Of a DNA stretch of 64,000 nt, positions 10,005 through 52,109 are shown one piece after another. The notes under the pieces were generated by a model, which saw only the letters and a program-made list of their open reading frames with translations, did not search any database and was not told the DNA's origin. Source of the stretch: a virus; IMG/VR virus record IMGVR_UViG_3300035698_020096, positions 16,174 through 80,173 of that record. One strand, given 5' to 3'. Position 1 is the first letter of the stretch, and every line of letters begins with the position of its first letter. The position numbers and the translations under genes are program-made.

Positions 10005-10017
10005 TTCTATACTTAAT
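9996..10017. terminator. Hairpin between convergent genes
   Basis: ATTAAGTA and TACTTAAT form an 8-bp AT-only stem around a 6-nt loop, spanning the stop codons of the converging 8973 and 10453 genes. It is plausible as a bidirectional terminator but thermodynamically weak. Confidence 0.3.
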
Positions 10018-10453
10018 CCTTAAATCTATTAGATAGATAACTAGCCGCCCTTTTCTTATTTAGTAAAGTCCCCTTCAACATAAGGATATGTTTACAAGGC
10101 CCTCCTTTATTCCTACTTTTCCATTGATAGTTTCCACAAGAACACTGGTAGGGTTCAGTAGATATTTGATACTCATTGCCCTTGGGACTAATACAAAGAA
10201 ATCCATTAGGTATAGGGGCAATAAAATAACCTAGAGTAATCATTTCCCCATACATAAGAATATAAAACATATTCTCAGTGGTCTCCCATAGATGATTACT
10301 AATGTCGATAATTCTTTTTACCCCTGAATTATCCTTCCATACTAAATAAGGTGTATTATTCTCTATCTTTATTTCAACAGTGGATTTCTTATCTAACCTC
10401 ATTTCTTCTGTAAGGATAGATTTAAGTAAGAGATATTCAAATGTAAGATTCAT
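10013..10453 (-). CDS. SWIM zinc-finger protein
   Basis: A 146-residue protein whose C-terminal region carries Cys104-x-Cys106-x13-Cys120-x-His122 (CSCGNYQWKSRNKGGPCKH), the pattern of the SWIM domain, a zinc-binding module known from bacterial helicase-associated proteins, transposases and recombination-associated proteins, where it binds DNA or protein. The N-terminal 100 residues are a mixed alpha/beta region without a motif I recognise. It is one of few minus-strand genes inside the structural block, convergent with the fibre-like gene and divergent from the protease gene, so it is probably expressed separately. A regulatory or DNA-binding role is possible; nothing shows a virion role. 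Confidence 0.65.
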   Translation of the reverse strand: MNLTFEYLLLKSILTEEMRLDKKSTVEIKIENNTPYLVWKDNSGVKRIIDISNHLWETTENMFYILMYGEMITLGYFIAPIPNGFLCISPKGNEYQISTEPYQCSCGNYQWKSRNKGGPCKHILMLKGTLLNKKRAASYLSNRFKD

Positions 10454-15955: not shown

Positions 15956-17623
15956 ATGAATGAATTAAATACTGAACTAAATAACTATATAAACTTAATA
16001 GTTAATACTGACAAATTCATCAATGCAGTAAGAAGAGCCTCTGTCACCCTAAACGACAGAGGCTCTATTTCTGACGAGGTGATTAAGGAAACAACTATAT
16101 ATGACTCCTTTCCTCGAATTGTATTAAGAGTAGCTACAGCTAAGACAAAAGAAGGATTGCCTGTATTTAAAGGTATTGGGTATGGTAATGATTATGCAGA
16201 CCAAGAACGAGAAGTATATAGAGTTATATCTCAAGAGCCCTTTAGTTCAGGGCTAACACGAGTAGCCTCTAGTCTTACTGCTGCCAAGTTAATTAGAAGT
16301 ATTCCTCTTAACACAGACATAAAGTTTCTAGATTCATCTAAGTTTATTGAAGAGCAGGCTATAGACGACCTTGATAGTTTGATAGGGATACTAGTTGATA
16401 ACCCCGAACTTATTGAAAGTCTTATTAAAGAAACTCAGTCCTCTAGCTTCTTCTTCGCTCAGGAAATAGACCTAGCTACTATACCCCCCTACGCCTTTGA
16501 CCGAGTAACAGGTATAGTAGCTAGATTAGATAGTGCTGACTTATATCGTAATGTAAAGATACCTACTAATACTATTGCTGAAATACATATATCTATATCT
16601 AATGCAATTGATATTAAAGAATTAAGATTACCTATTACAGATGGAGAAGATATATCGGATATAGTCAGTAAAATAGCAAATATTATTAATGAAGCTCTCA
16701 TATCTCTAGATGCTAATCTTATAGCTTCTGTAACTATTAATCCTCCTATTAAAACCCCTCTTAAATATTCAAAGAGAGAATTATATGGAGACCTAAATAA
16801 TGGGAATAAAGAGCTTATGTTTACTATTTATCCTACTATTCATAGAATTCAAATAGCAGCTAAGAGTCCAACCATAGAAACAGAGAGACAGTTAATATCT
16901 ATTAGTTCTGTCACAAGAAGTATAGAAGGGGTTGTAATTGGAGGTATTACAGGACTAGTATATAGTACCACTAGTAACTATAAGAATCTAACTAATAAAG
17001 GTCATCATTCCCTACTTGTTGATACCACTCGTATAGCTGTAAAGGATATATCCTCTACCAATAAGATAGACCCTTTAGATATAGATAGCTTTCACTTTAG
17101 ATTAAAGGATGGATATACAAGTACCCAGCCAGGTAGATTCCATGTTCGTATTAGTAATCTACCTGATAGTTCTTATCCTACTGAATGGTATATAGATTTA
17201 CCTAGTTCTCAACCTCATATTATAACTAGCTTAATACATGATTCCTTTTATGAAAGAAGATTAGGTAATCAAGTAGTTACTAGTATGGGTTCCATTAGTA
17301 CCTTGCAAATAATAGCATTTGTTTTATGTCCTAAAGAGATAAAGATAGTAGTTGACCTCTTAGATATACCTGAAGGTCTAGAAGTGGCCACTGGCTCTTT
17401 AACTCAAGTACTTACTAGTTATAGTCAATACTCTAGGTCAGTAACAGTTAAGTCTCAATTAGACTATGTTAACTACGCTAGGTCTACTAATCCTAAACAA
17501 GACCCTGTAGGTATTGGAGGTAAGGTTCCTCCTAGATATTCAGCTATATATCAAGACTTACAAGGTAAGTTAGCTAAGTTAAACAGGTGCAGTGTTCCCT
17601 TCATTAGAGGTCCTATATGTTAG
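15956..17623 (+). CDS. Putative neck or head-tail connector protein
   Basis: A 555-residue protein with no motif I can name. The sequence alternates Ile/Val-rich strands with charged turns. Residues 1-150 are helical, 190-260 look like a compact alpha/beta unit, and the C-terminal 80 residues end in a basic, Cys-containing tail (RCSVPFIRGPIC). Its stop overlaps the start of the next gene by 7 bp, so the two are translationally coupled and probably act together. Position between capsid and sheath genes makes it a candidate for adaptor, neck or tail-completion protein. The coding assignment is firm; the role is inferred from gene order only. Confidence 0.55.
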   Translation: MNELNTELNNYINLIVNTDKFINAVRRASVTLNDRGSISDEVIKETTIYDSFPRIVLRVATAKTKEGLPVFKGIGYGNDYADQEREVYRVISQEPFSSGLTRVASSLTAAKLIRSIPLNTDIKFLDSSKFIEEQAIDDLDSLIGILVDNPELIESLIKETQSSSFFFAQEIDLATIPPYAFDRVTGIVARLDSADLYRNVKIPTNTIAEIHISISNAIDIKELRLPITDGEDISDIVSKIANIINEALISLDANLIASVTINPPIKTPLKYSKRELYGDLNNGNKELMFTIYPTIHRIQIAAKSPTIETERQLISISSVTRSIEGVVIGGITGLVYSTTSNYKNLTNKGHHSLLVDTTRIAVKDISSTNKIDPLDIDSFHFRLKDGYTSTQPGRFHVRISNLPDSSYPTEWYIDLPSSQPHIITSLIHDSFYERRLGNQVVTSMGSISTLQIIAFVLCPKEIKIVVDLLDIPEGLEVATGSLTQVLTSYSQYSRSVTVKSQLDYVNYARSTNPKQDPVGIGGKVPPRYSAIYQDLQGKLAKLNRCSVPFIRGPIC

Positions 17624-22694: not shown

Positions 22695-24776
22695 ATGAAA
22701 TATTATACACCTGAAGCTTCAATACCAGCAGCCGCTATTACATATGCTGGCAATCTTTCTCCTTATCAACCTATATTATTTACTACTCAATTTGGGTATA
22801 CAGATGTAGGGTTATGTAAAGAAGGAGATGACCCTTTTAAAGGTAGACCATTAGTATGGACTATTTCATATATAAAAGTAACTCTAGTTAGGGATTGGTC
22901 TACATCTATAGCTAGTATTGTACTTACTTCATCTATGCCTAGTGCTGATTGTCCAGTACCTAAACTTCCTAATCTAGGAAAGATTAGAGGAGGTAACAAT
23001 CCTTACTTAACCTTTGAAGATGAGATAAGAATATATATGGGATATATAGGGGATGTTAATACTCCTATAAACGCTTCTATGTTAGATGAACACCCTATTG
23101 ACCTTTGTCCTAGAGATATACCAGATGTAGCTGAAGGTTTAAAGTGTGGACCTAAACATGGTGAAGACTTTAAGCAGAATGACAGTAAACCTTTAGCTCC
23201 TGTATTCTGGGGCTTCATAGATAATATCTCTATGGTAGGAGATTCTAAGTCAGGGGTTAAACTAATGATTCAATGTAGGGATAGAACCAGGGTCTTATCT
23301 GATACAAAGATAATAGCTATTCCCGAATTACAAGGTAGACTAGTAGATTCTAGAGATAAAGGTTTCTTTAAGAAGAAAGGTTCGGGAGGACTAGCTAGTG
23401 GTAGAAGAGAAGATATTCTTATTCAGGTAGCTAGAGCAGCAACTGGTAGTCTCTTTGCTAGTACCGCACGTCAAGGTCAAACTACCTTTGGTCCCCCAGA
23501 TACTAAACAATGTTGGAAACCTGTTATAGGGGGCAGTGATGAAAATCAAGAGAATTGGTATTATCCAGATTGGGGCCCTAAGATATCTGAAGGTACTCCT
23601 CAAAGTCAAAGACCTTCTCAATTAGGAGTACAACTATTTACTGGCTTTGTAGGTGAGGATAAATACTTAACTAAGATAAGCCCTGATGAGGATCCTGCTC
23701 TATGGTTAAGAGAAGCAACGCATAAAAAGATGCTTCCTTATTCAGAACCTAGATTTCACATGTGGGTACAACGTCCTCCTTTGTCTAAAGCTAATGGAGC
23801 TGCTGTATTTCAAATACTTAATAAGAGTCCAATAGAAATCATTCAGTTTCTAGCTAATACTGAAGAAAGACCTACTGATTTCTTTGCTAGTCATATTAAT
23901 GGAGACTATATATTTGGACCTAGAGTATTAGATACAAGTGGATTCTATGACCCAGTAAGAATGCACCGTACCTATTTCTTTAAGGAATATCCTAAGAATG
24001 TAGGTAAGCCTAAGGTTAATCAAATGATACTTAGGATTAGAACAGCTTCTTCATCTTTAGCTTCATTCAATAGATTCGTAGTAATGGACTCGGAGAGTGA
24101 GGGAGCTTACGATGCCTTTCTAGATAAACTATCTATTGCTTTAGAAGTATTACCTTGGACTCTTGACGGTAATACTGAAGATGAATATGGTTCACTATTC
24201 CCTGATACAGGAGGTAGAGCTATATATCCTCCTTGTAGAAATCAGATAATATATGACGGTAACCTTAGCTCTTATGGTCCTGACCCTTTCAATAGAGTTG
24301 GGGGAGCACTTATCGTAGGTATTAGTCAAGCTAGAACATGGGCTAGAGAAATGCAAGGGGTACAGTTAACCCTTACTGGTGACCCTACATTCTATCCTTC
24401 TGAAGCTATTAGAGTTTATAACACTGTACTTCATGATTACGCTACTTCTATTAACCCGGGTACTTCTTATAGTCAAGAGTTATTAGAGAAGAATCAACGG
24501 CAGATAGAAGGATTGTTTAAGGATGAATCTACTATATCTAATATAATGGACTCTTCTAATAAGAAAGGAGTACAGGACTTTAGTTCCCAACAAGCTAAAA
24601 CTGTTACTGAGATTATGACTCAGACAACTAGAGGTCATATGGTTAATACACAAAAAGACCCACTTAAAGGATTAATTCTACCTGTGTATAAAGTAAGGTC
24701 AGTCCAACATGTACTTAAAACATCAGGTACTGGTGCTGGTTTTATTACTACTATTGAATGTATTGGAGATTATTAA
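22695..24776 (+). CDS. Baseplate hub protein (gp27-like)
   Basis: A 693-residue protein immediately upstream of the spike gene, the usual hub position. Residues about 110-120 (DEIRIYMGYIG) and 175-200 (VFWGFIDNISM followed by LMIQCRDRTRVL) match the opening of hub/gpD-type proteins: a strand defining an instrument of the form D-x-I-x-I-x-x-G-Y and a second strand ending in D-R-T. The C-terminal third contains LTLTGDPTFYPSEAIRVYN, also typical of hub domains that end the second barrel. Hubs form a trimer joining the hexameric tube to the trimeric spike. It is larger than T4 gp27 (391), with insertions in the middle. The last 100 residues are Ser/Thr/Gln-rich before a final beta strand. Confidence 0.72.
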   Translation: MKYYTPEASIPAAAITYAGNLSPYQPILFTTQFGYTDVGLCKEGDDPFKGRPLVWTISYIKVTLVRDWSTSIASIVLTSSMPSADCPVPKLPNLGKIRGGNNPYLTFEDEIRIYMGYIGDVNTPINASMLDEHPIDLCPRDIPDVAEGLKCGPKHGEDFKQNDSKPLAPVFWGFIDNISMVGDSKSGVKLMIQCRDRTRVLSDTKIIAIPELQGRLVDSRDKGFFKKKGSGGLASGRREDILIQVARAATGSLFASTARQGQTTFGPPDTKQCWKPVIGGSDENQENWYYPDWGPKISEGTPQSQRPSQLGVQLFTGFVGEDKYLTKISPDEDPALWLREATHKKMLPYSEPRFHMWVQRPPLSKANGAAVFQILNKSPIEIIQFLANTEERPTDFFASHINGDYIFGPRVLDTSGFYDPVRMHRTYFFKEYPKNVGKPKVNQMILRIRTASSSLASFNRFVVMDSESEGAYDAFLDKLSIALEVLPWTLDGNTEDEYGSLFPDTGGRAIYPPCRNQIIYDGNLSSYGPDPFNRVGGALIVGISQARTWAREMQGVQLTLTGDPTFYPSEAIRVYNTVLHDYATSINPGTSYSQELLEKNQRQIEGLFKDESTISNIMDSSNKKGVQDFSSQQAKTVTEIMTQTTRGHMVNTQKDPLKGLILPVYKVRSVQHVLKTSGTGAGFITTIECIGDY

Positions 24777-24834
24777 TTCAATAGATAACTCGTAAGGTTA
24801 CTCTAAATATTTAATTAAGGAAAGTTATTTATAT

Positions 24835-26901
24835 ATGTCTTATTCTGATGGAACAGCTACTCTTAGAAGACAATGTACTGCTAATGAAGATAATAGAAAA
24901 TCCTTTCTTGCTACTCAATCTAATTTTAAGATTACTCAAGGAGTAGTAGAAGGTCTAGTTGGTATGGAGAGTCCTGAGCATATAGGTATGGTGTATAACA
25001 TCAGACTTATAGATACAGGACATTTAGTTAGATGTAGAAGATTAGTTAACTCTGCTTCATTTGATGGAGTAGGAGAATATAATCCTTTAGAAGAAGGAGA
25101 CCCAGTAGTAGTAGCTTTTAAAGAAGGTATGCTTCAAGATGGGATTATCCTTGGTTGTTTCTACACAGAAGGTACATATAAAGAGTTCTATATAGAAGGT
25201 CAAGGACTTAAACCAAGAGAAGTAAAGTCTAATTCTGTAAGGAATGTAGAGTTTAACCAACCTTCTATTCACCCTAATCGCGTGGCTCAACCCGATGCCT
25301 GGGTACATATTATTGGAGGCAAGGTAGGGCCATATAGAGACCCTGCTCTTACTGATGGTAGTACTAGTATGAAAGCTAATAGAAGACCTCCCCCAGCTTC
25401 TATTCAAATAAAGAATAAATTAGGAGATGTAGGTCAATGGGCTAAAGGAGATATCATCTTCTATTCAGATAGTAATATCATTCTTTTCTCTAGTCAAGAA
25501 GGGAAGTCTAAATGTAAAAGATTAAGAGAACTGGCTGAGTATTACCAACAAATGGTAGAGGAAATGGAGGTTTTTATAGGAGTACAAATTGAAGATGAAA
25601 TAAAACCAGCAGTATTTGAAGATGAAGCTGTTAAGGTTAGAAGCCTGGTTAATGCACATGAAGCTTCTGATAAATTTAATGATGAAGTTATAAATCCCGA
25701 ATCTTCTGAAACTAATACTGAAAACCCTGAATCTTCTGACTCAACTGACTATAACTATACAGATGACGATAGACGTAATAGAAGATATATTAATGGAGAA
25801 CCTAATATCGACTATATGATGTATGCCCCTTTAGTCGAATATCATCTTCCTCAATTAAAAGCAATGGCAGCTAAATGTAAAGAGTTAGCTATTACATGTA
25901 AAGAAGAGGCTATCAATCATGCAGGGGTTACTAATAGTAGACTAGAGGCTAGTCAAATAGTACAAGACGCTTGTTCTGCTTTATCCTCAGGGGGTCAACT
26001 AGATGATGAAAAGATAGAAGCATTGGCTGAAGGTCGTATATGTTTAAGTGGTGATGTAAGACATTACCCCTTTACTAAATGGAAGTTAGATAAATCTCAA
26101 GGTGTTGAAATAGAAGACTTAGCTTCTGACTCCGAGATTAAAGATGTATTAGTACATAAAGCTCTACTAGAAGCTTTTAAAAAGATGAGGGATGCTGCTC
26201 TATCTGAATCAGGGGGAGATATAGATTTAGCTATCGCTAGTGGGTTTAGAGACAAGGAATATTTAGATAAATATGGTTTAGACCCTAGAGATTGTGAATT
26301 ATTAGGAGGAGAGTTCCTACCTAAACCTGAACAATCTTTTGAGACAGGAGCTATAACTAATACGGGTAAAACAGGTTTAGTAGTTATAGACCCTGGACAT
26401 GGTGCGCCCGACCCAGGTGCAGTAGGTAATGGTATTGAAGAGGCTACTTATGTATTAGAGATAGCTAAATCTTTAGTTTCTACTCTTAACGGAGCAGGTA
26501 TTAAAACTCTATTAACCAGAGATATTGATGCTCAAGTACCTTCTCTTAGAGGAGCTGTAGAGTTAGCCACTAGTAATAATGCCAATCTCTTTGTTAGTAT
26601 TCATTGTAATGCTTTAGCTGGAGCTATTGCTACTGGATTTGAGGTATTTAGATATCATTCAGTTAGTGATACATTTGCAAATAATACAGTTAAAACTCTA
26701 GCTGCAAATCTTCCTACTCTTCCAAATAGAGGAGTTAAGTCTGGTAACTTCACCGTAATTAAAGCTTCCTCCGCTATCCCTTCTATTCTTGTTGAATTAG
26801 GTTTTATAAGTAATCCTAAAGAAGCAGAGTTTATGAAACAAGCCGATACTAAGTCTAAATATGTAACCGCACTAGCTCAAGCTATTATTAATACTTTATA
26901 G
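24835..26901 (+). CDS. Baseplate spike (gp5-like OB fold) with N-terminal half of VanY and an amidase_3 domain
   Basis: A 688-residue multidomain protein. Residues about 30-125 form the gp5/VgrG-type OB domain (GMVYNIRLIDTG; DPVVVAFKEGMLQDGIILG). A charged helical region follows to about 400. Residues about 413-485 resemble the N-terminal half of VanY/M15 D,D-carboxypeptidases: HYPF, then a helix LLEAFKKMRDAA, then IASGFRDKEYL, the counterpart of the SGYRS strand. Before the M15 zinc motif appears, an N-acetylmuramoyl-L-alanine amidase_3 domain begins (about 510-688): VIDPGHG, EEATYVLEIAKSL, SIHCNA and ELGFISNP supply the zinc ligands His, Glu, His and the catalytic Glu. The matching VanY C-terminal half opens the next gene, 4 bp later. 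The protein would puncture the outer layers and cut the peptide from glycan at the tail tip. Confidence 0.82.
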   Translation: MSYSDGTATLRRQCTANEDNRKSFLATQSNFKITQGVVEGLVGMESPEHIGMVYNIRLIDTGHLVRCRRLVNSASFDGVGEYNPLEEGDPVVVAFKEGMLQDGIILGCFYTEGTYKEFYIEGQGLKPREVKSNSVRNVEFNQPSIHPNRVAQPDAWVHIIGGKVGPYRDPALTDGSTSMKANRRPPPASIQIKNKLGDVGQWAKGDIIFYSDSNIILFSSQEGKSKCKRLRELAEYYQQMVEEMEVFIGVQIEDEIKPAVFEDEAVKVRSLVNAHEASDKFNDEVINPESSETNTENPESSDSTDYNYTDDDRRNRRYINGEPNIDYMMYAPLVEYHLPQLKAMAAKCKELAITCKEEAINHAGVTNSRLEASQIVQDACSALSSGGQLDDEKIEALAEGRICLSGDVRHYPFTKWKLDKSQGVEIEDLASDSEIKDVLVHKALLEAFKKMRDAALSESGGDIDLAIASGFRDKEYLDKYGLDPRDCELLGGEFLPKPEQSFETGAITNTGKTGLVVIDPGHGAPDPGAVGNGIEEATYVLEIAKSLVSTLNGAGIKTLLTRDIDAQVPSLRGAVELATSNNANLFVSIHCNALAGAIATGFEVFRYHSVSDTFANNTVKTLAANLPTLPNRGVKSGNFTVIKASSAIPSILVELGFISNPKEAEFMKQADTKSKYVTALAQAIINTL

Positions 26902-26905
26902 ATAT

Positions 26906-28825
26906 ATGTCAGATAAGTCGAATAGATTAAAATCAGTAGCTCCAGTAGAGAATAGTGAACATTTAACAGGATTCTCAGTAGATGTAGTAGATAAGAAAGA
27001 CCCTAAGACCTTTGATTTAGATGGTAATTATAAAGCTAAAGCTTGGGAATGGGTTGAAGCTAATTGTGGAAAGTATGGCTTCGAGGTATCTTTCCCTAAA
27101 GGTAATAAGCAAGGACTTAATTATGAACCCTGGCATCTTAGATATATAGGACCTGAAGTACCCGCTGAATTACAATTAGTATTTGCTTACGCTAAATCTG
27201 GTGGTAATGCGGATGAAGCTACATTAGATAAGATATGTAAAGAGTCTCCTAAGACTGAATCTATAGAACATACTCAAGATGATATTAAATCTAGAACTGA
27301 TTTAGACTTAGATAGAATTGTTAAGACCCATAGTATAGAAGCTCTTACTGTTATTACAGGGAAAGGTACCCTAAATAGCAAAAAGGCAGCTAACTACGCT
27401 TTTAACGCTGATTCAGCTATAAAGCTACATATAGCCCATGCTGTTTATCAACACGTTAGTTCGTTAAACATTTCTATAGATACCAATATTACTGCTAGTC
27501 CTAATGTACTTGCGGAAAATGAACCTGAATACCCCTCGGGTAAATCCTTTTCTATTAAGTATTTAATTAATAAAATGTTAGAAGTAAGCTCTAATACAGC
27601 TACTAATATGTTAATTCAGTACATAGGTGGAATTTCTCTTGCTCGCAAAAAAGTAAACACCTTAGGTTATTCATTAACTCTGATTAAGGATTATATATCT
27701 CTGCCAGGTAAGGTGGTAGGGGATAACCCTGATGTGACTAATACCTCTTCTACGTTTGATATGGCTAAGGCTATATTTCAATTACTTAAGTTGAAACACA
27801 GTTTACAGTTAGATGTTTTAAACATAATTGTTAATTCTCTTAGCAAAGCAGAAGTACCTAAAGGTATGCGGAATATAAAATTTAATAAGATTGGATATAA
27901 TTCTAGAGTCAATGTCAATGTAGCTGTGTATCAAAATAGTAATGGTTACTTTATAATAGCTGCGGCTAACCTTACAGAATCCAGAGATTTTGAATTAACT
28001 AAGGTAATGTTAGCTACTAACGAGGTAACTCAAGCTATAGACAATTTAGAACTCGAAGGTATAGATTTTACTAAAGCTCCTGGAACTGCTTCTAGTGCTG
28101 CTTCTAGTGCTGCTGCTCCTCGTTCTACTACAGCTAAATCTCTCCCTGTATTAATGTATCACTCTATTGGTAATGGAGAAATAGATCCGAAATATGCTAG
28201 ATACGAAGTTACCCCTGAAAGGTTTAGAGGGCATATGCAGCATCTAAAGTCTTTAGGATATACAGCAGTATTAGCTAATAATATTATCTCAGGGGACCTA
28301 CCAGATAAACCTATCGTTATTACTTTTGATGATGGATGTTTAAATAATCTAACTAATGCAGTCCCAATAATGAGAGAATTCGGAATGAGGGGACTATTCT
28401 TTATTACTACTGATTGGTTAGGTAAAACACATCCCGAATATAAAGTCCCTATTATGAATAGTAATCAAGTAGCTCAGTTAGTAAATGGAGGGCACGAAGT
28501 GGGCTCACATAGTTTAAGTCATCCTAGACTATTGGATATATCCGAAGCCCAACTTACTAAAGAGTTAGTTGATTCAAAGAATATATTATCCTATATAGTT
28601 GGAGCTAATATTAAATCTTTCTCCTACCCATTTGGTAGAACTAACTCTTCCATAGTTCAAGCTACAGCTAAATATTATCAATTAGCTTATATGGCATTTC
28701 TGACTTCTGATAACCCAGGTAATAGTAAACATATGATAAACAGAGTAGAAATTGATGGTAAAGTAAGTGATTATGAATTAGAAATAAAGGCCCAGCATGA
28801 ACATAACTTCCTAAAGCTTACTTAG
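26906..28825 (+). CDS. VanY C-terminal half + beta-lactamase-fold domain + NodB polysaccharide deacetylase
   Basis: A 639-residue protein with three enzyme domains. Residues 1-85 are the C-terminal half of a VanY carboxypeptidase: SEHLTGFSVD (His19, Asp26) and EPWH (Glu74, His77) give the full zinc and catalytic set, but the usual N-terminal half is absent here and is found in the preceding gene. Residues about 120-375 resemble class A beta-lactamase-like serine hydrolases: Ser170-A-I-Lys173 (SxxK), Ser228-Ser-Asn230 (SxN), and Lys328-Ile-Gly330 in place of KTG. An Ala/Ser linker follows near 390-410. Residues about 415-635 are a NodB deacetylase with TFDDG, HSLSH and FSYPFG motifs. Together these would attack D-Ala-D-Ala ends and remove N-acetyl groups. 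The gene starts 4 bp after the spike gene. I know of no family with this exact arrangement. Confidence 0.8.
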   Translation: MSDKSNRLKSVAPVENSEHLTGFSVDVVDKKDPKTFDLDGNYKAKAWEWVEANCGKYGFEVSFPKGNKQGLNYEPWHLRYIGPEVPAELQLVFAYAKSGGNADEATLDKICKESPKTESIEHTQDDIKSRTDLDLDRIVKTHSIEALTVITGKGTLNSKKAANYAFNADSAIKLHIAHAVYQHVSSLNISIDTNITASPNVLAENEPEYPSGKSFSIKYLINKMLEVSSNTATNMLIQYIGGISLARKKVNTLGYSLTLIKDYISLPGKVVGDNPDVTNTSSTFDMAKAIFQLLKLKHSLQLDVLNIIVNSLSKAEVPKGMRNIKFNKIGYNSRVNVNVAVYQNSNGYFIIAAANLTESRDFELTKVMLATNEVTQAIDNLELEGIDFTKAPGTASSAASSAAAPRSTTAKSLPVLMYHSIGNGEIDPKYARYEVTPERFRGHMQHLKSLGYTAVLANNIISGDLPDKPIVITFDDGCLNNLTNAVPIMREFGMRGLFFITTDWLGKTHPEYKVPIMNSNQVAQLVNGGHEVGSHSLSHPRLLDISEAQLTKELVDSKNILSYIVGANIKSFSYPFGRTNSSIVQATAKYYQLAYMAFLTSDNPGNSKHMINRVEIDGKVSDYELEIKAQHEHNFLKLT

Positions 28826-28828
28826 AAT

Positions 28829-29299
28829 ATGAAATTTAAACCCCTAATAGTAATTCATGAATCCTTATATTCATATGAAGAAGTAGCTCCTTTATTTCAA
28901 TCATCTACACATAAAGGTAGATATCATGCATTCATTAAATGTAACGGAGTAGTTCTATATATAACCCCTTCTAATAAGAAAGCAGAAGCAGCTTATGAAT
29001 CTTCCTTTAATGGAGAGGATGTATGTGATTCAGTAGACCCCTTTGCTTATCATATATGTCTAGAATCACCCGAAGGTTCTAATCCTCATGCTTCTTCACA
29101 TATAGGATATACAGAATCTCAATATTATTCTCTAGCTTGGTTAATAGCTAGAACTAAAGTTAATGTAGATAGAATAGTAGGTCATAAAGATATAGATACT
29201 AGAAAGCAAAGTATTGACCCTAGAAATTTAGATTTAAGTAGAGTTAAGTTAGATGTAAATAAGTTTAAACCCACTTCTTATCTTGAATTAGGAATATAA
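28829..29299 (+). CDS. N-acetylmuramoyl-L-alanine amidase (amidase_2 / PGRP family)
   Basis: A 156-residue single-domain amidase of the T7-lysozyme type. IVIHES places the first zinc His at position 10, GRYHAFI supplies the paired strand of the fold, and GHKDIDTRKQSIDPR near the C-terminus gives the second His and the conserved Asp-Pro. The length equals a minimal amidase_2 domain and there is no signal peptide or wall-binding domain. It cleaves the bond between MurNAc and the peptide stem, the same bond as the amidase_3 domain two genes upstream but by a different fold. It begins 3 bp after the previous stop, so it is co-translated with the virion lysins. It could be a virion enzyme or the endolysin; no holin-like gene is adjacent. 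Confidence 0.82.
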   Translation: MKFKPLIVIHESLYSYEEVAPLFQSSTHKGRYHAFIKCNGVVLYITPSNKKAEAAYESSFNGEDVCDSVDPFAYHICLESPEGSNPHASSHIGYTESQYYSLAWLIARTKVNVDRIVGHKDIDTRKQSIDPRNLDLSRVKLDVNKFKPTSYLELGI

Positions 29300-29316
29300 A
29301 TAGAAAGAATAAATAT

Positions 29317-30564
29317 ATGAGTAAGCGAGAAAAGTACGAGAAGTTATTAAATAATGTAAATGTAGTAGCTGCATTACATATGATTAATCAAGTTGAATCT
29401 AATTATGGTTCAGATTCATACGGAGTTATATTTGGGGGTAGTACCCCTCCATTAGGTACAGACCATCCTAGAATAAGCGTACCTAGGAATGATGGTACAG
29501 GGAGAACTAGTAATGCTGCGGGTAGATATCAATTCATGTCTTTCACCTGGGATGAAGTTAATCAAAATATTGGACCTTTAGATTTCTCCAATCCTAGGCA
29601 TCAAGATATAGCTGCTATTGAACGTATAGAGGTAAGAGGAGTATTAGATGCTGTTATTAAAGGAGATATAGAATTCGCTCTTACAGGAGGACATCCTGCT
29701 TCTATGGGAGTAGATGCTTGTTACTTATATCCTTCTGGGATGGCTTGTGAATGGGCTGGTTTAGCCCCTAGTAGGTATGGTCAAGGTGACGCTACTATAG
29801 CTCAGAATATAGCTGACTTCGAGAAGTTTAAAGGAGTACCTTTACCTAAAGGAGGGGGTACTCCCACTGATACAAGCAGTAATGTACCTACTACACCTGG
29901 AGATGGTAATCAAACAGCTATGCAAGCTTTCTCTGCATCAGTAAAGTATGGGGCCTCATCTATCGTTGGATTCTTAGGAGATACTAAACGAGGTATTCTC
30001 TGTCATCAGATAAGGTTATGTAAAGTAGAGGCAGGAAATCCACCTACTTCTGTTATGAAAGTAATGGGAGGTGAAGGTAACTTAACAGGCTTCACTCCTG
30101 GTATGAATAGTACAGCTACAAATGCTAATTCAGGAGGTGCTCTTAAAGCTGGAGAGTTTACACCTAGACCGGGAGCTTATATAAGTTCTGCACCGGGGGT
30201 ACCAGTAAACTCTCCTTTTGGCATGAGAGGGGGACGCATGCACAATGGAGTGGACCAAGCTGCGCCGGAAGGTACTCCCTTACTAGCCTCAGGGGATGGG
30301 ACAGTAACTGTAACTGGATATGAACCAGGTTATGGAAACCATGTTTTTATTAAACACTCCGATGGGCTTACTACTACCTATAACCATATTTTAGATGGAG
30401 GTACTAAAGTAAAGGCAGGTCAAAAAGTAAAACAAGGAGATGTTATTGCTCTAATGGGTACTACAGGTAGAAGTTCAGGACCTCATATTCACTTTGAATT
30501 CTGGAGAGGAGACCCGGATGCTGGTACTCCCATTGACCCTCAAACTATTATTCCCGACCTCTAA
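29317..30564 (+). CDS. GH104-like muramidase/transglycosylase fused to M23 endopeptidase
   Basis: A 415-residue bifunctional lysin. Residues about 10-175 follow the lambda R/GH104 pattern: a helix carrying Glu27 (MINQVESN), a GG-x-T loop with HPR at 50-52, S-x-A-A-G-R-Y-Q-F at 65-73, T-W, then Q-D-x-A-A. This cleaves the glycan. A Gly/Thr/Ala linker and a middle region of unknown role follow. Residues about 285-410 are a LytM/M23 zinc peptidase: S-P-F-G-M-R-G, His309-N-G-V-Asp313, a Y-N-H-I strand and His390-I-His392, all ligands present. It would cut peptide cross-links. It is the last of four consecutive wall-active genes; its stop overlaps the next start (TAATG). No signal peptide is present, which fits delivery in the virion. 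Confidence 0.85.
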   Translation: MSKREKYEKLLNNVNVVAALHMINQVESNYGSDSYGVIFGGSTPPLGTDHPRISVPRNDGTGRTSNAAGRYQFMSFTWDEVNQNIGPLDFSNPRHQDIAAIERIEVRGVLDAVIKGDIEFALTGGHPASMGVDACYLYPSGMACEWAGLAPSRYGQGDATIAQNIADFEKFKGVPLPKGGGTPTDTSSNVPTTPGDGNQTAMQAFSASVKYGASSIVGFLGDTKRGILCHQIRLCKVEAGNPPTSVMKVMGGEGNLTGFTPGMNSTATNANSGGALKAGEFTPRPGAYISSAPGVPVNSPFGMRGGRMHNGVDQAAPEGTPLLASGDGTVTVTGYEPGYGNHVFIKHSDGLTTTYNHILDGGTKVKAGQKVKQGDVIALMGTTGRSSGPHIHFEFWRGDPDAGTPIDPQTIIPDL

Positions 30565-31193
30565 TGAATTATTCAGATTGTATATATGAAGCAGTAAGAA
30601 AAGAGAATGGTAATAAATATCATGTATCTCTAATATCTATTCTCTTTGAACCTTCTTTTCTATTAGACAATGAAACTATATTACATGACCATAGAGCTCT
30701 TTTTCCTCTATTGAGTTTAGTACCAGTTAACTTAATGATTCTTTTAACTCTTTATCTAAATGAAGATGAGGAAAGATTGTTTAATAGTTATAAGAAATCT
30801 TATGGGGAAAAGAGGGTTATATCTTCTACTCTGGACCCCTTAACTATCATTACCCTTAATCAAAACTTTACTGGTAATCCTCATATAAATCTTCTACCCA
30901 ATATCATTCAAGTATTTAGAACAGACAAAGATAGATACAAATACTTAGGCTTTCTTTTAGGTATTGATAACTTGTTGATAGATGATAGTCTTCCCTTAGT
31001 ACAGAAGTTGGATTCATTAATCACTCAGGTATGCCCTACATGTGATATATCAGTTAAAGACGCTTTGTTAAGTCTGATTAGTACTAATGATAAGAAAAGG
31101 GCATTAGAGATATTAAGTAATCAAATATATAGATATAAAGAAGATACGACTATATTTCTTATTAATAAATTGATAGATGAACTAAATGGCTAA
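30564..31193 (+). CDS. Hypothetical structural-operon protein
   Basis: A 209-residue, mostly helical protein of unknown family. It overlaps the preceding lysin gene by one base and the following gene by a few bases, so it is translationally coupled into the baseplate operon. The segment at about 30-65 is hydrophobic (FPLLSLVPVNLMILLTLYL), long enough for one membrane pass, but it is more likely a buried helix because charged residues follow at once. No catalytic motif is visible. T4-like phages use small helical chaperones around the hub (gp26, gp28, gp51); such a role is conceivable. Confidence 0.5.
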   Translation: MNYSDCIYEAVRKENGNKYHVSLISILFEPSFLLDNETILHDHRALFPLLSLVPVNLMILLTLYLNEDEERLFNSYKKSYGEKRVISSTLDPLTIITLNQNFTGNPHINLLPNIIQVFRTDKDRYKYLGFLLGIDNLLIDDSLPLVQKLDSLITQVCPTCDISVKDALLSLISTNDKKRALEILSNQIYRYKEDTTIFLINKLIDELNG

Positions 31194-42500: not shown

Positions 42501-43255
42501 ATGGTCTCTCTAGTTTCTACCCTGCTCTCAATAGTATAGCTATGAGCTTTTCTCTTACAGGTAGTAAGCACTTCAACGTAGATAAATGGGAAAAAGAGCT
42601 AGAGATGTCTCGCTGGGATGGAGAATCTCTTTCTACTTATAAAGCTAGAGTTAGAGATTATCTATTAAATAAGACTATAGACAGAATAGGTATTCAAAAC
42701 CTATTTAATTTATACGATATTGATTTAATAAACATATCAGATATTACTCTTCAATCCTTTGATTCCTATACTCAACCCCAAAGTTCTTTTAACTCAGTAA
42801 TTAGAGATAGTAATCTTCTAGTAGCCAGTGAAGTTAGAGATAACTTTATAGCTAATGTACCTACAGTATTTATTACTATTAATAAGCCCGTATTAGATGT
42901 AATAGGTAATGAAGTATCTAGATTAACTCCTGTAGGAGTAATAGTTAAATTCATTGAAAAGGTAGATTATTTATCTTGCTCTAAACCTATTGATATAAAT
43001 AGAAAAGTTTCTTCCCTAGAAATAGCTGTACCTTCCTCAGCTCCAGAAGTATTAGTAGAACCCTTATGCTGTGCGGAGGAAGCCTTATGCGGTCCTATTA
43101 CATATAGAGTTAGACTACAGCACGTATCTGATTCTCCCTTATATTTATATAAGGAAGGAGATTCTTTCTATGCATCTGAATCTAGCCAGATGGGAAATCC
43201 ACTTACTATGATTCCATCTTATACAGCTAACAAATTATTTCTTTATAAACCATGA
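39590..43255 (+). CDS. Large Cys-rich baseplate protein with EEGxYxxC repeats and a helical toroid-like domain
   Basis: A 1221-residue protein in the slot after J where P2 encodes gpI and T4 gp7-type proteins act. Residues 1-620 are beta-rich with about thirty cysteines and at least six copies of a short motif of the form [VY]xE[EDP]G[IVL]Y-x-x-C (VFEEGVYTNC, YEPGIYEDC, VFEEGIYVDKC, CYVEGIYKAEC and two weaker ones). Residues about 640-930 are paired helices (NIMACLAFIKLYELT, ATIYGLIFSLW) resembling the alpha/alpha toroid of some glycan-active enzymes, though no catalytic residues can be assigned. Residues about 990-1060 form a helical wedge-like end (GFGWFHKNALGKQ, DKWEKELEMSRWDG). Its stop overlaps the next start as ATGA. 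The precise role is unknown. Confidence 0.58.
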   Translation: MLKDTCASSLVTLSQLNINTFNSEYKLDITVGREYGPLKLISGHVNIPIYFSTNQVFHSSCFTVGCFDSSGIWSTKPVDYKEELSNCLIDGYETCFEEYEAVCSVQVPYSENVVYEPDVFDLGIYQLHNGYRTEYRSGLCYEAPLIETPFHPLEELFDIDIFPTTSSICNKFTLNKDYNLSIATYTADVFEEGVYTNCDYHFERGTELVVCLNGPYEPGIYEDCTYNKTFHVSSYNPSKCLDECVISPLEPIAAYSSSSSGLTLDQAYNCDASFPSSKTYLTAEGKNLLILEDNCINSYCQEDGLYEKRRFYYDLDMKPYVEEVFEEGIYVDKCLTSSHQIETIFNPNFCCLTRDDLYPLAYLSAQLNEFLQAHNLTPNSEYYPYTTTERKEIIDCSSCYTPLVKSIEGVDRLTRFNGYQEEVFFNGLPTPLGALVVDIGYIYPGTYEFVLLKKDVPINNDGTFSSEVLAPSGIKAVRLKAITRNREVVLGMSFGDNPLSPLLIKTYSENTPLSFPTNHVILEDLAITLTLVSLSGYKSTLDNCPTNNIGMYYLEPYMKALLEDNLTKLSTLINRDINSPIYNAIPSKLYPDSTYESLYQRKQLDKSCYVEGIYKAECALIYDDPTMIGDDFLCLTECFSKEEDITPILPLDTDLRSIAWLIISYTTYLDVFPKSVLEEEYDTAATRLGEYLMSRLTPFLIDEGNETSHTSTNIMACLAFIKLYELTASPTYLNKAADLYISINDYLYSFLDRSFIHEASTQVFSTEATIYGLIFSLWTNQEDKVESLLTLMKLRRKSFRDVYRLAITNEEGLITDLEGTPILIHQTDSYELIKEGYFDLLIPFYTAPQEAGYSLADTVRLMILSDYVLKATEAKGFNIGFSNHIDIYQEEVRSNPKLQTSTWFASCLTDIFINHSLITPSSLKDLQTLIFNREYVTDQLKKMIPTGFGWFHKNALGKQSNLGRMLRSFSYGLSSFYPALNSIAMSFSLTGSKHFNVDKWEKELEMSRWDGESLSTYKARVRDYLLNKTIDRIGIQNLFNLYDIDLINISDITLQSFDSYTQPQSSFNSVIRDSNLLVASEVRDNFIANVPTVFITINKPVLDVIGNEVSRLTPVGVIVKFIEKVDYLSCSKPIDINRKVSSLEIAVPSSAPEVLVEPLCCAEEALCGPITYRVRLQHVSDSPLYLYKEGDSFYASESSQMGNPLTMIPSYTANKLFLYKP

Positions 43256-44367
43256 GTATTCCTAAACTACTAATAGTAGGAGCAGGACCTAGAGGTATAG
43301 GTCTTGCCCTTAGAGCTATTCATAGTGGAATAGAAACCACTATAGTAGACCCCTTCCCTTTAAAGACTTGGACTCCTCCTAATATGCTTATAGATATGAG
43401 TATGAGAAGTCCGATAGGATTTGATTTAGTTACCTTTTGTTCTGACCTTAAAGAATATAGTCTTAGTTATTATCTAGGTTCTTATAATGATATACAAGAA
43501 CAGAAGGAAATAGAGGTTCAGCATCAACCCATAAGTAGAGATATATTTGTTAAATACTTAAATCATATATGGGATTATGTGGGACCAAGAGTTAATTATA
43601 TAGATAAACCTATTACTCAAATAGGGAAGGATTATGTAATAGCAGGGGATAGAAAGATAGTTACTGATAACATAGCTATTGCTCTAGGTTCTCCTTCTAA
43701 ACTTAATGTTCCTAATTACGCTAGACCCTTTGTTTCCTCAGATAATTTATTAGGAACTAAAGAAATAATACTAAATAAACCACTGGGACTAACTATAGCC
43801 GTAATAGGTTCAGGTCAGAGTTCAGCTGAACATGTGGATTACTTAACTCCTGATAATAAGGTTATATGGGTAACCAATAAGGAAACTAAAGTACACCTCT
43901 ACCCGGTTCCCCCTTATTCTATTTGGGGACCAAAGTCAGCTTTAGGAGATTATTTTAGTAGATTAAAGGAAAGTGATAAAAAGGCTGCTTTAAAATATAT
44001 GAAAGAAGTAGCTGGGTGGACTCCTTCTATTACCCCCTCTATAGCTAAATCTCTTGAGGAGAAATCTCACTTAATCACTAAGGTAATGCCTCAAGATATA
44101 AATACCTATATATCAAAAGTAGATAAGGTTCTCCTATGTATTGGATTTAACACCTCTTTAGATAACATCCCCTTTTCTATTCCTATTACTAAGGAAATTG
44201 TTAAATCAGACTATCCTGAATTAAATAACTTTAAGTCTCCTGAAGGTATATATTTTACTGGGGACCTAGCTAAGTTTTATGATGGACCTAGACAAGGTTC
44301 CCTTATTTCTATTGGAATTACATCTAAGACAATAGTAGAAGACATTCTATCAAATCATTATGGATAA
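43252..44367 (+). CDS. FAD/NADPH-dependent N-monooxygenase-like oxidoreductase
   Basis: A 371-residue flavoprotein unexpected in a baseplate operon. The first Rossmann motif is VGAGPRGIGLALRA (Gly10-x-Gly12-x-x-Gly15), the FAD site of the lysine/ornithine N-hydroxylase class. The second is VIGSGQSSAEHVDYL (about 184-198), the NADPH site typical of that class. VDKVLLCIGFN at about 290-300 stands for the D-x3-[LF]-ATGY signature in degenerate form, and a C-terminal FAD-contact segment has TGDLAKFYDG. Family members hydroxylate amines in siderophore synthesis; the substrate here is unknown. At 371 residues it is shorter than IucD/PvdA types (about 430). It overlaps both neighbours (4 and 8 bp), so it is an integral operon member rather than a recent insertion. 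It could be a metabolic gene or a domesticated baseplate component. Confidence 0.78.
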   Translation: MSIPKLLIVGAGPRGIGLALRAIHSGIETTIVDPFPLKTWTPPNMLIDMSMRSPIGFDLVTFCSDLKEYSLSYYLGSYNDIQEQKEIEVQHQPISRDIFVKYLNHIWDYVGPRVNYIDKPITQIGKDYVIAGDRKIVTDNIAIALGSPSKLNVPNYARPFVSSDNLLGTKEIILNKPLGLTIAVIGSGQSSAEHVDYLTPDNKVIWVTNKETKVHLYPVPPYSIWGPKSALGDYFSRLKESDKKAALKYMKEVAGWTPSITPSIAKSLEEKSHLITKVMPQDINTYISKVDKVLLCIGFNTSLDNIPFSIPITKEIVKSDYPELNNFKSPEGIYFTGDLAKFYDGPRQGSLISIGITSKTIVEDILSNHYG

Positions 44368-51405: not shown

Positions 51406-51599
51406 AAGACCCTAGATTAAACATTCCCGGTGAGTATATAAAACATGGGGCTATTGCGTTCCCCCCTAAGAACAATATTAATAAAGAGCTAGAAGCCCTT
51501 AGAAAGGAGGTTGAGGAGAATAATAAAATAGTCAATCAACTATTACAACTCTTTCAACAACAACTTCAAACTTCTACTAAACTCCCCACTGAGGATTAA
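51402..51599 (+). CDS. Small coiled-coil protein
   Basis: A 65-residue protein overlapping the previous gene by 4 bp (ATGA). Residues 25-55 form a heptad-rich helix (INKELEALRKEVEENNKIVN, then Gln-rich), so it probably oligomerises. It ends inside the 3' end of the convergent minus-strand LAGLIDADG-like gene (57-bp overlap). It may be a small fibre-attachment or chaperone protein; nothing more specific can be said. Confidence 0.5.
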   Translation: MKDPRLNIPGEYIKHGAIAFPPKNNINKELEALRKEVEENNKIVNQLLQLFQQQLQTSTKLPTED

Positions 51600-52109
51600 T
51601 TCTTTATCCAGCAATTGAATACTTTCCTTTTTATATACCCTTAGTCTATTTATAGATTGAGGGTTATTTATTACTAGATTACATTCAATAAGAAACTCTC
51701 GTTTAAGATAATCACGAAGTCCTTGTAGTACTAGTAATTTAGAACTACTTACCTGTAGATAATATTCTCTATGATTAGCTTGATTCCATCCTTTTGTGTA
51801 TATAACTTTACCCTTACACTCCAAGGAACCCGATATGAATCCCCTAATGAATTCTCTATTATCAACTCTATTGAATAGGAGATAATCTATATCTTCTCTC
51901 TTACCTTTAATATGTATTTCATACATCTCTCGTTTATAACCACTTAATAGCCAAGTAGTTAGATTAAAAACTTTACATAGTTCATAGACTTTATCCACTA
52001 TATCTATATCGGAAGTAGTAACTATATACCCTTGTTTCTTCTTTTTATGTCTAAGTAATAGAACAGCAAGGAGCCAGCCTTGATTAAATGATTGACATAC
52101 TAAACTCAT
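51543..52109 (-). CDS. Degenerate LAGLIDADG-family protein
   Basis: A 188-residue minus-strand protein with two half-repeats of a LAGLIDADG homing endonuclease. The second motif is clear (EFIRGFISGSLECKGKV, about 86-102), followed by a strand-rich segment and YYLQVSSSKLLVLQGLRDYL, as in the family. The first motif (GWLLAVLLLRHKKKKQGYIV, 11-30) has lost its catalytic acidic residue: Arg-His stands where Asp-Gly is expected, and in the second motif Ser-Leu-Glu replaces the usual Asp-Gly. It is therefore probably cleavage-defective, or a maturase or DNA-binding derivative. It is free-standing between the baseplate and fibre genes and transcribed against them, typical of mobile homing genes in phage genomes. 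Confidence 0.6.
   Translation of the reverse strand: MSLVCQSFNQGWLLAVLLLRHKKKKQGYIVTTSDIDIVDKVYELCKVFNLTTWLLSGYKREMYEIHIKGKREDIDYLLFNRVDNREFIRGFISGSLECKGKVIYTKGWNQANHREYYLQVSSSKLLVLQGLRDYLKREFLIECNLVINNPQSINRLRVYKKESIQLLDKELILSGEFSRSLKLLLKEL

Follow-up and report, generated by a model that had tools for sequence, protein, structure and literature searches.

A VanY carboxypeptidase domain divided between two neighbouring genes, with an Amidase_3 domain at the break, in the tail spike locus of a cyanophage-like virus

The window analysed here is a stretch of 64,000 nucleotides from the virus record IMGVR_UViG_3300035698_020096 (positions 16,174 to 80,173 of that record), and the virus that carries it is cyanophage-like. 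Downstream of a conserved baseplate gene lie two open reading frames (ORFs), here called P1 and P2. P1 encodes a putative gp5/VgrG-like tail spike protein that ends in an Amidase_3 domain, and P2 encodes a protein in which part of a VanY carboxypeptidase domain is followed by Beta-lactamase2 and polysaccharide deacetylase domains (Table 1). The two genes are both on the plus strand and 4 base pairs (bp) apart, exactly where an earlier note on this DNA had located them, and they are read in different frames. The spike OB region of P1 scores 18.6 bits with Pfam, below the cut-off of 23.8, and is homologous to the baseplate protein of phage LMM01. It is well supported that a single VanY domain has been cut into these two neighbouring genes, with its N-terminal part (N-half) placed in P1 ahead of the amidase and its C-terminal part (C-half) placed at the start of P2.

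The Pfam VanY profile (PF02557) has 132 positions and a gathering score of 25. In the whole P2 protein the match covers amino acids 5-82 and lacks the first 51 profile positions, starting at position 52, and the C-half fragment of P2 taken alone (amino acids 4-82) corresponds to positions 51-131 with 71.1 bits. Amino acids 439-476 of P1 match positions 3-37 with 14.0 bits (E-value 0.046), which on its own falls below the gathering score. Joining the N-half to the C-half yields a single match through positions 3-131 with 87.7 bits, whereas control joins that use a shuffled or a reversed N-half score 69.8 and 69.5 bits, respectively. Coverage of the whole-domain profile is obtained only when both ORFs are joined, and neither spans the domain alone. 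Likewise, on a family hidden Markov model (HMM) made from 16 intact viral VanY domains, with the window sequence left out, the joined halves score 120.5 versus 99.8 for the C-half. None of 1000 shuffled N-halves reaches the joined score (maximum 107.9), and other 90-amino-acid stretches of P1 reach at most 104.3. In phmmer searches, the joined sequence aligns through the junction with solved LdcB/VanY enzymes, for example 4ox3 (B. subtilis YodJ/LdcB) and 4mph. The earlier note had predicted an M15-type N-terminal half in the spike residues that precede the amidase, and the joined score and the shuffled controls bear out this prediction. P2 contains no second N-terminal half.

Relatives of the locus were collected by using the upstream baseplate gene as a marker, which returned 41 contigs from the viral collection (designated by L-numbers), and a rescan with a closer alignment gave the identical set. 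In L019 (and L020, whose spike is identical), L021 and L027, the spike OB region, a complete VanY domain and a Beta-lactamase2 domain reside in one uninterrupted ORF of 878, 944 and 770 amino acids, respectively, in which no amidase is present. The spike ORF of L026 carries spike and VanY domains. Downstream of the spike, all of these contigs have Amidase_2 and then M23, as does the window. Because the spike-VanY-beta-lactamase arrangement exists as one ORF in the same gene order, the amidase of the window is an insertion. The claims that VanY halves are ordinarily continuous, and that an Amidase_3 unit had been inserted along with a stop codon and a fresh start codon, are therefore supported by unsplit, amidase-free relatives. 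The PF02557 score of the joined window halves lies between those of the intact L019 (91.0) and L021 (82.8) domains.

Within the family of 41 contigs, a split VanY occurs only in the window and in its sister contig, L018 (IMGVR_UViG_3300035034_002254). Over 15.6 kilobases, 14 substitutions and a single deletion of 12 bases distinguish the window from its sister, and yet both have the same split structure. Erroneous joining of an amidase gene into the spike gene during assembly has to be considered for metagenomic records, but this second contig, together with an insert base composition that equals that of its flanks, makes such an artefact extremely improbable. Two further contigs (L138 and L139) in which VanY at first was matched only from residue 46 were rejected as additional split cases, since both are intact.

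The spike C-terminus is a swap slot in a constant baseplate context across the family (window 24835-30564; L002, L016, L019-L035, L039 and L042). The slot is occupied by VanY, Amidase_2, GDSL lipase, Beta-lactamase2 alone, or amidase-like or divergent Amidase_3 domains, so that enzymes are exchanged there often. An intact VanY is also found in another gene of L022 (15598-17676), after a lysozyme-like domain (GH108-like by eye) and M23. Two ORFs take the place of the otherwise conserved upstream baseplate gene in L030 (9995-11828) and L033 (9627-11405), which could reflect sequencing errors or further fission.

Table 1. Features of the split VanY locus and adjacent genes, in window positions
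Feature	Position	Strand	Remarks
P1, gp5/VgrG-like spike bearing a VanY N-half and, C-terminally, Amidase_3	24835..26901	+	688 amino acids
Spike OB region of P1	24835..25584	+	Phage_base_V sub-threshold; phrog_30576 baseplate protein, E-value 9e-30
VanY N-half, P1 amino acids 439-490	26149..26304	+	HKALL...SGFR...RDCELL; carries invariant Ser469 and Arg472
SGFR motif, P1 amino acids 469-472	26239..26250	+	Arg472 aligned to SpLdcB Arg120
New linker from the VanY N-half to the amidase, P1 amino acids 491-512	26305..26370	+	Not present in intact relatives
Inserted Amidase_3 domain, P1 amino acids 516-686	26380..26892	+	DPGHG, GIEE, SIHCNA and VELGF motifs
P1 stop (TAG) and 4-base spacer (ATAT) ahead of the P2 ATG	26899..26905	+
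P2, VanY C-half, Beta-lactamase2 and polysaccharide deacetylase	26906..28825	+	639 amino acids
VanY C-half, P2 amino acids 6-84	26921..27157	+	Zinc ligands His19, Asp26 and His77, with Glu74 (SEHLTGFSVD, EPWH)
Beta-lactamase2 domain, P2 amino acids 162-353	27389..27964	+	SAIK, SSN and NKIG motifs
Polysaccharide deacetylase domain, P2 amino acids 464-589	28295..28672	+	TFDDG and SHSLSH
Amidase_2 gene	28829..29299	+	Downstream; gene order as in intact relatives
Lysozyme-like and peptidase M23 gene	29317..30564	+	Order conserved
Upstream baseplate gene phrog_34291	22695..24776	+	Conserved; marker for finding the family

Three other genes of the window were recorded. A flavin monooxygenase-like gene (43252-44364; Lys_Orn_oxgnase, E-value 1e-10) is in unusual company within the tail gene cluster, and a SWIM zinc-finger protein gene resides on the minus strand amid head genes (10013-10453). 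Also on the minus strand, positions 51543-52109 give a weak, below-cut-off match to LAGLIDADG_3 (E-value 0.007), a possible homing endonuclease.

The broken ends in the window (RDCELL and NRLKSVAP) align fully with the continuous sequences of L019 (RTCTDL and TSIKSVAP) and L021 (RTCDSL and ERLKEVAP), and therefore no homologous VanY residue has been lost at the break. An AlphaFold model of the intact L019 VanY domain (mean predicted local distance difference test score 85.7) matches 4mph, 4ox3 and other LdcB, VanXY and VanY structures. In this model the break maps to loop residues 66-69, which connect helices 54-65 and 70-75 and are among its least confident parts. A surface loop of this kind would be a tolerant site for insertion. 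We also looked for a target-site duplication, for which the candidate is an 18-nucleotide near repeat (15 of 18 identical) that joins the end of the N-half (26279) and the start of the amidase (26387). This candidate was rejected as not distinctive: when 18-mers were sampled from the region, about 0.7% had an equally good partner, and the repeat is thus no more than a hint of microhomology.

The inserted domain matches the Amidase_3 profile (PF01520) over its full length (positions 1-174 of 174, 146 bits, E-value 1e-42) and, judged by its complete zinc-site motifs, is probably an intact enzyme. Searches for a close donor returned only cellular matches of approximately 29-41% identity (the best at 38-41%) that are scattered over phyla. 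When the full P1 protein was used to scan viral contigs, only the sister contig was recovered, and at an E-value of 1e-3 the insert has no match in any other spike of the family. Other types of interrupting element were considered and rejected. No group I or other self-splicing intron is evident, as no Rfam intron is found in 24000-31000 even at E-values up to 1, and an intein is contradicted by the Pfam content of P1 (Amidase_3 and spike OB only) and by the separate ATG with which P2 begins after the stop. Neither is the insert a homing endonuclease, as it consists of the Amidase_3 domain.

Ten columns are invariant among 18 viral VanY domains, and the window retains all ten, with Ser469 and Arg472 on P1 and Ser17, Glu18, His19, Gly22, Asp26, Glu74, Trp76 and His77 on P2. 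The zinc ligands (H, D and H) and the nearby glutamate are all supplied by P2, as the earlier note had stated. Its further claim that P2 holds every catalytic residue does not stand, because the serine and arginine of the SGxR motif are retained on P1. The equivalent arginine of the S. pneumoniae enzyme SpLdcB, Arg120, touches the product carboxylate and flanks the nucleophilic water jointly with Glu204 (PMC4087270). Since the invariant residues are divided two to eight between P1 and P2, an LdcB-like active site would need both proteins. Possession of the three zinc ligands and the glutamate might nevertheless let P2 bind or cut peptidoglycan without the N-half. We regard this as quite improbable, given that the N-half contributes a strand as well as the invariant serine and arginine, and that all other VanY domains in the alignment retain both halves.

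With moderate confidence, we favour an explanation for these sequence features in which insertional gene fission has produced complementary VanY halves that probably rejoin in trans and tether P2 to the spike. The earlier note had raised reassembly in trans as one possibility, and the sequence evidence is all compatible with it. As the intact relatives show, the ancestor was one tail-spike protein in which an OB spike was followed by an LdcB/VanY-type zinc carboxypeptidase and a serine beta-lactamase-like domain. In the lineage of the window, an Amidase_3 domain that brought along a stop codon would then have entered the VanY coding sequence at the loop, and the VanY remainder would have gained a start codon 4 bp downstream. 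The two proteins are probably made by coupled translation from one messenger RNA, and most likely meet via their VanY halves. No Shine-Dalgarno-like sequence is found upstream of P2, and the neighbouring genes mostly lack one as well. The rebuilt active site would draw its zinc ligands and glutamate from P2 and its arginine from P1, and the rebuilt domain would replace the former covalent tether between P2 and the spike with a non-covalent one. Such docking is appealing because in the relatives the spike chain itself includes the beta-lactamase-like domain, which a reassembled VanY would hold in place at the spike. The outcome would be a tail tip with one extra peptidoglycan-cutting activity. 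More tentatively, the locus might be viewed as a natural split enzyme of the tail tip, whose VanY halves serve both as an active site and as a docking joint for the multi-enzyme P2, and which was split by gaining a useful wall enzyme rather than a parasitic endonuclease.

Frameshifts are used by phage tail genes, and a programmed +1 frameshift or a bypass at the end of P1 could create some P1-P2 fusion protein with the amidase nested in one polypeptide. The open frame of P2 extends 10 codons beyond its ATG in the upstream direction (649 codons in total), the required shift is indeed +1, and the two genes are only 4 bp apart. However, ATT ATT AAT ACT TTA TAG holds no recognised slippery sequence, and the ATG that directly follows the stop is in the style of a coupled operon, so that we judge this route highly improbable.

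A more serious competitor, which we nonetheless consider unlikely, is that the VanY domain is simply broken. Insertion into a domain usually destroys it, and in that event the N-half would be a spacer before the amidase, the C-half a relic, and P2 a free or separately attached enzyme. The N-half is weak across its clade, that of the window is the weakest by itself on Pfam, and decay would not yet be visible after a recent event. However, the invariant residues are retained on both sides of the junction, and the N-half is no more diverged than those of intact sisters. Its mean identity to 14 other VanY domains is 0.270, compared with 0.221 for L019 and 0.272 for L021, which speaks against accelerated divergence. 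The bits contributed by the N-half on the family HMM are likewise 20.7 for the window, 20.1 for L019 and 29.2 for L021. Moreover, P1 differs between the window and L018 by one synonymous and no non-synonymous change. The absence of decay in either half suggests that P1 and P2 come together again at the tail tip. These sequence comparisons argue against decay without proving function, since the split may be recent.

Several observations weigh against rejoining of the halves. On Pfam, the N-half of the window alone scores somewhat below those of the intact L019 (20.8 bits) and L021 (22.4 bits) domains. The entire clade formed by the window, L019 and L021 has weaker N-halves than other VanY domains and lacks Gln125, a residue conserved in LdcB enzymes, which is replaced at the corresponding position (P1 amino acid 477) by Leu in the window and L019 and by Asn in L021. 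The substrate of the clade may therefore differ, and a change in VanY activity may already have preceded the split. Finally, the split is seen in one lineage only, represented by two near-identical records, and if it is recent then the lack of decay says little.

The sister contig carries additional differences in P2. Four substitutions separate P2 in the two contigs (27411, 27422, 28593 and 28773), all of them A>C and non-synonymous, and one puts Gln in place of Lys173 in the SxxK motif of the beta-lactamase domain, which represents either a sequencing error or a real loss of activity. The 12-base deletion in L018 (window 28086-28097) is in frame and falls where an Ala/Ser-rich linker connects the beta-lactamase-like domain to the deacetylase domain.

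The split domain shares its fold, the H-x6-D...E-x2-H zinc site and the SGxR arginine with LdcB/VanY zinc carboxypeptidases (MEROPS M15B, PF02557; 4ox3, 4ox5 and 4mph), but is distributed over two polypeptides rather than one contiguous chain and belongs to a clade in which LdcB Gln125 is replaced. The lysozyme spike gp5 of phage T4 is also a tail-spike OB protein with a peptidoglycan hydrolase that is present as two associated polypeptides. However, gp5 is made as one chain and is cut between domains after translation, whereas here two genes are involved and the cut is inside a domain. In Microcystis phage Ma-LMM01 and Microcoleus phage My-WqHQDG the spikes have a homologous OB region in the same baseplate neighbourhood, but end in a divergent Amidase_3-like and a Beta-lactamase2 domain, respectively, and both lack VanY.

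A literature search for a split arrangement of VanY and Amidase_3 found only precedents in other proteins. Insertion of mobE splits NrdA of Aeromonas phage Aeh1, for which full activity of the split enzyme has been shown; the 43A and 43B parts of the phage 25 DNA polymerase co-purify and have polymerase activity; and the T4 topoisomerase gene for gp39 and gp60 is split by mobA (PMC2988022). As in these systems, a contiguous phage enzyme gene has been split by insertion into two ORFs, whose products would have to combine to make up the enzyme, and, as in the Aeh1 NrdA type, the gene is contiguous in relatives and both pieces are kept with complementary conserved residues. In the wasp Campsomeris, mitochondrial cox2 has undergone insertional fission into two complementary genes that apparently form a heterodimer (PMC5374615), although the insert there is 3 kilobases with a putative nuclease, and the product is a respiratory protein of an animal mitochondrion.

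The phage split enzymes found in the literature result from homing-endonuclease insertions in DNA-metabolism genes, whereas the present case, if true, concerns a virion-borne structural enzyme that is interrupted by a functional domain from its own pathway. This suggests a route by which tail tips could gain enzymes and subunits through domain insertion and fission, in which the domain that is broken turns into an interface between subunits. It would also define a site at which the LdcB/VanY fold is naturally divided, and which could serve for a testable split-enzyme pair. In Aeh1 and T4 the insert is a homing endonuclease (the origin of the gene 43 split is less certain), unlike the Amidase_3 domain observed here, which is fused in frame to the N-half and is predicted to add a further enzyme whose function is broadly the same; reassembly, too, is a proposal in our case. 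Insertional fission with functional reassembly is thus already known from phages, and insertional fission from a wasp mitochondrion, and the present case is new in the kind of protein that is split, in the kind of element inserted and in that this element is fused to one of the halves.

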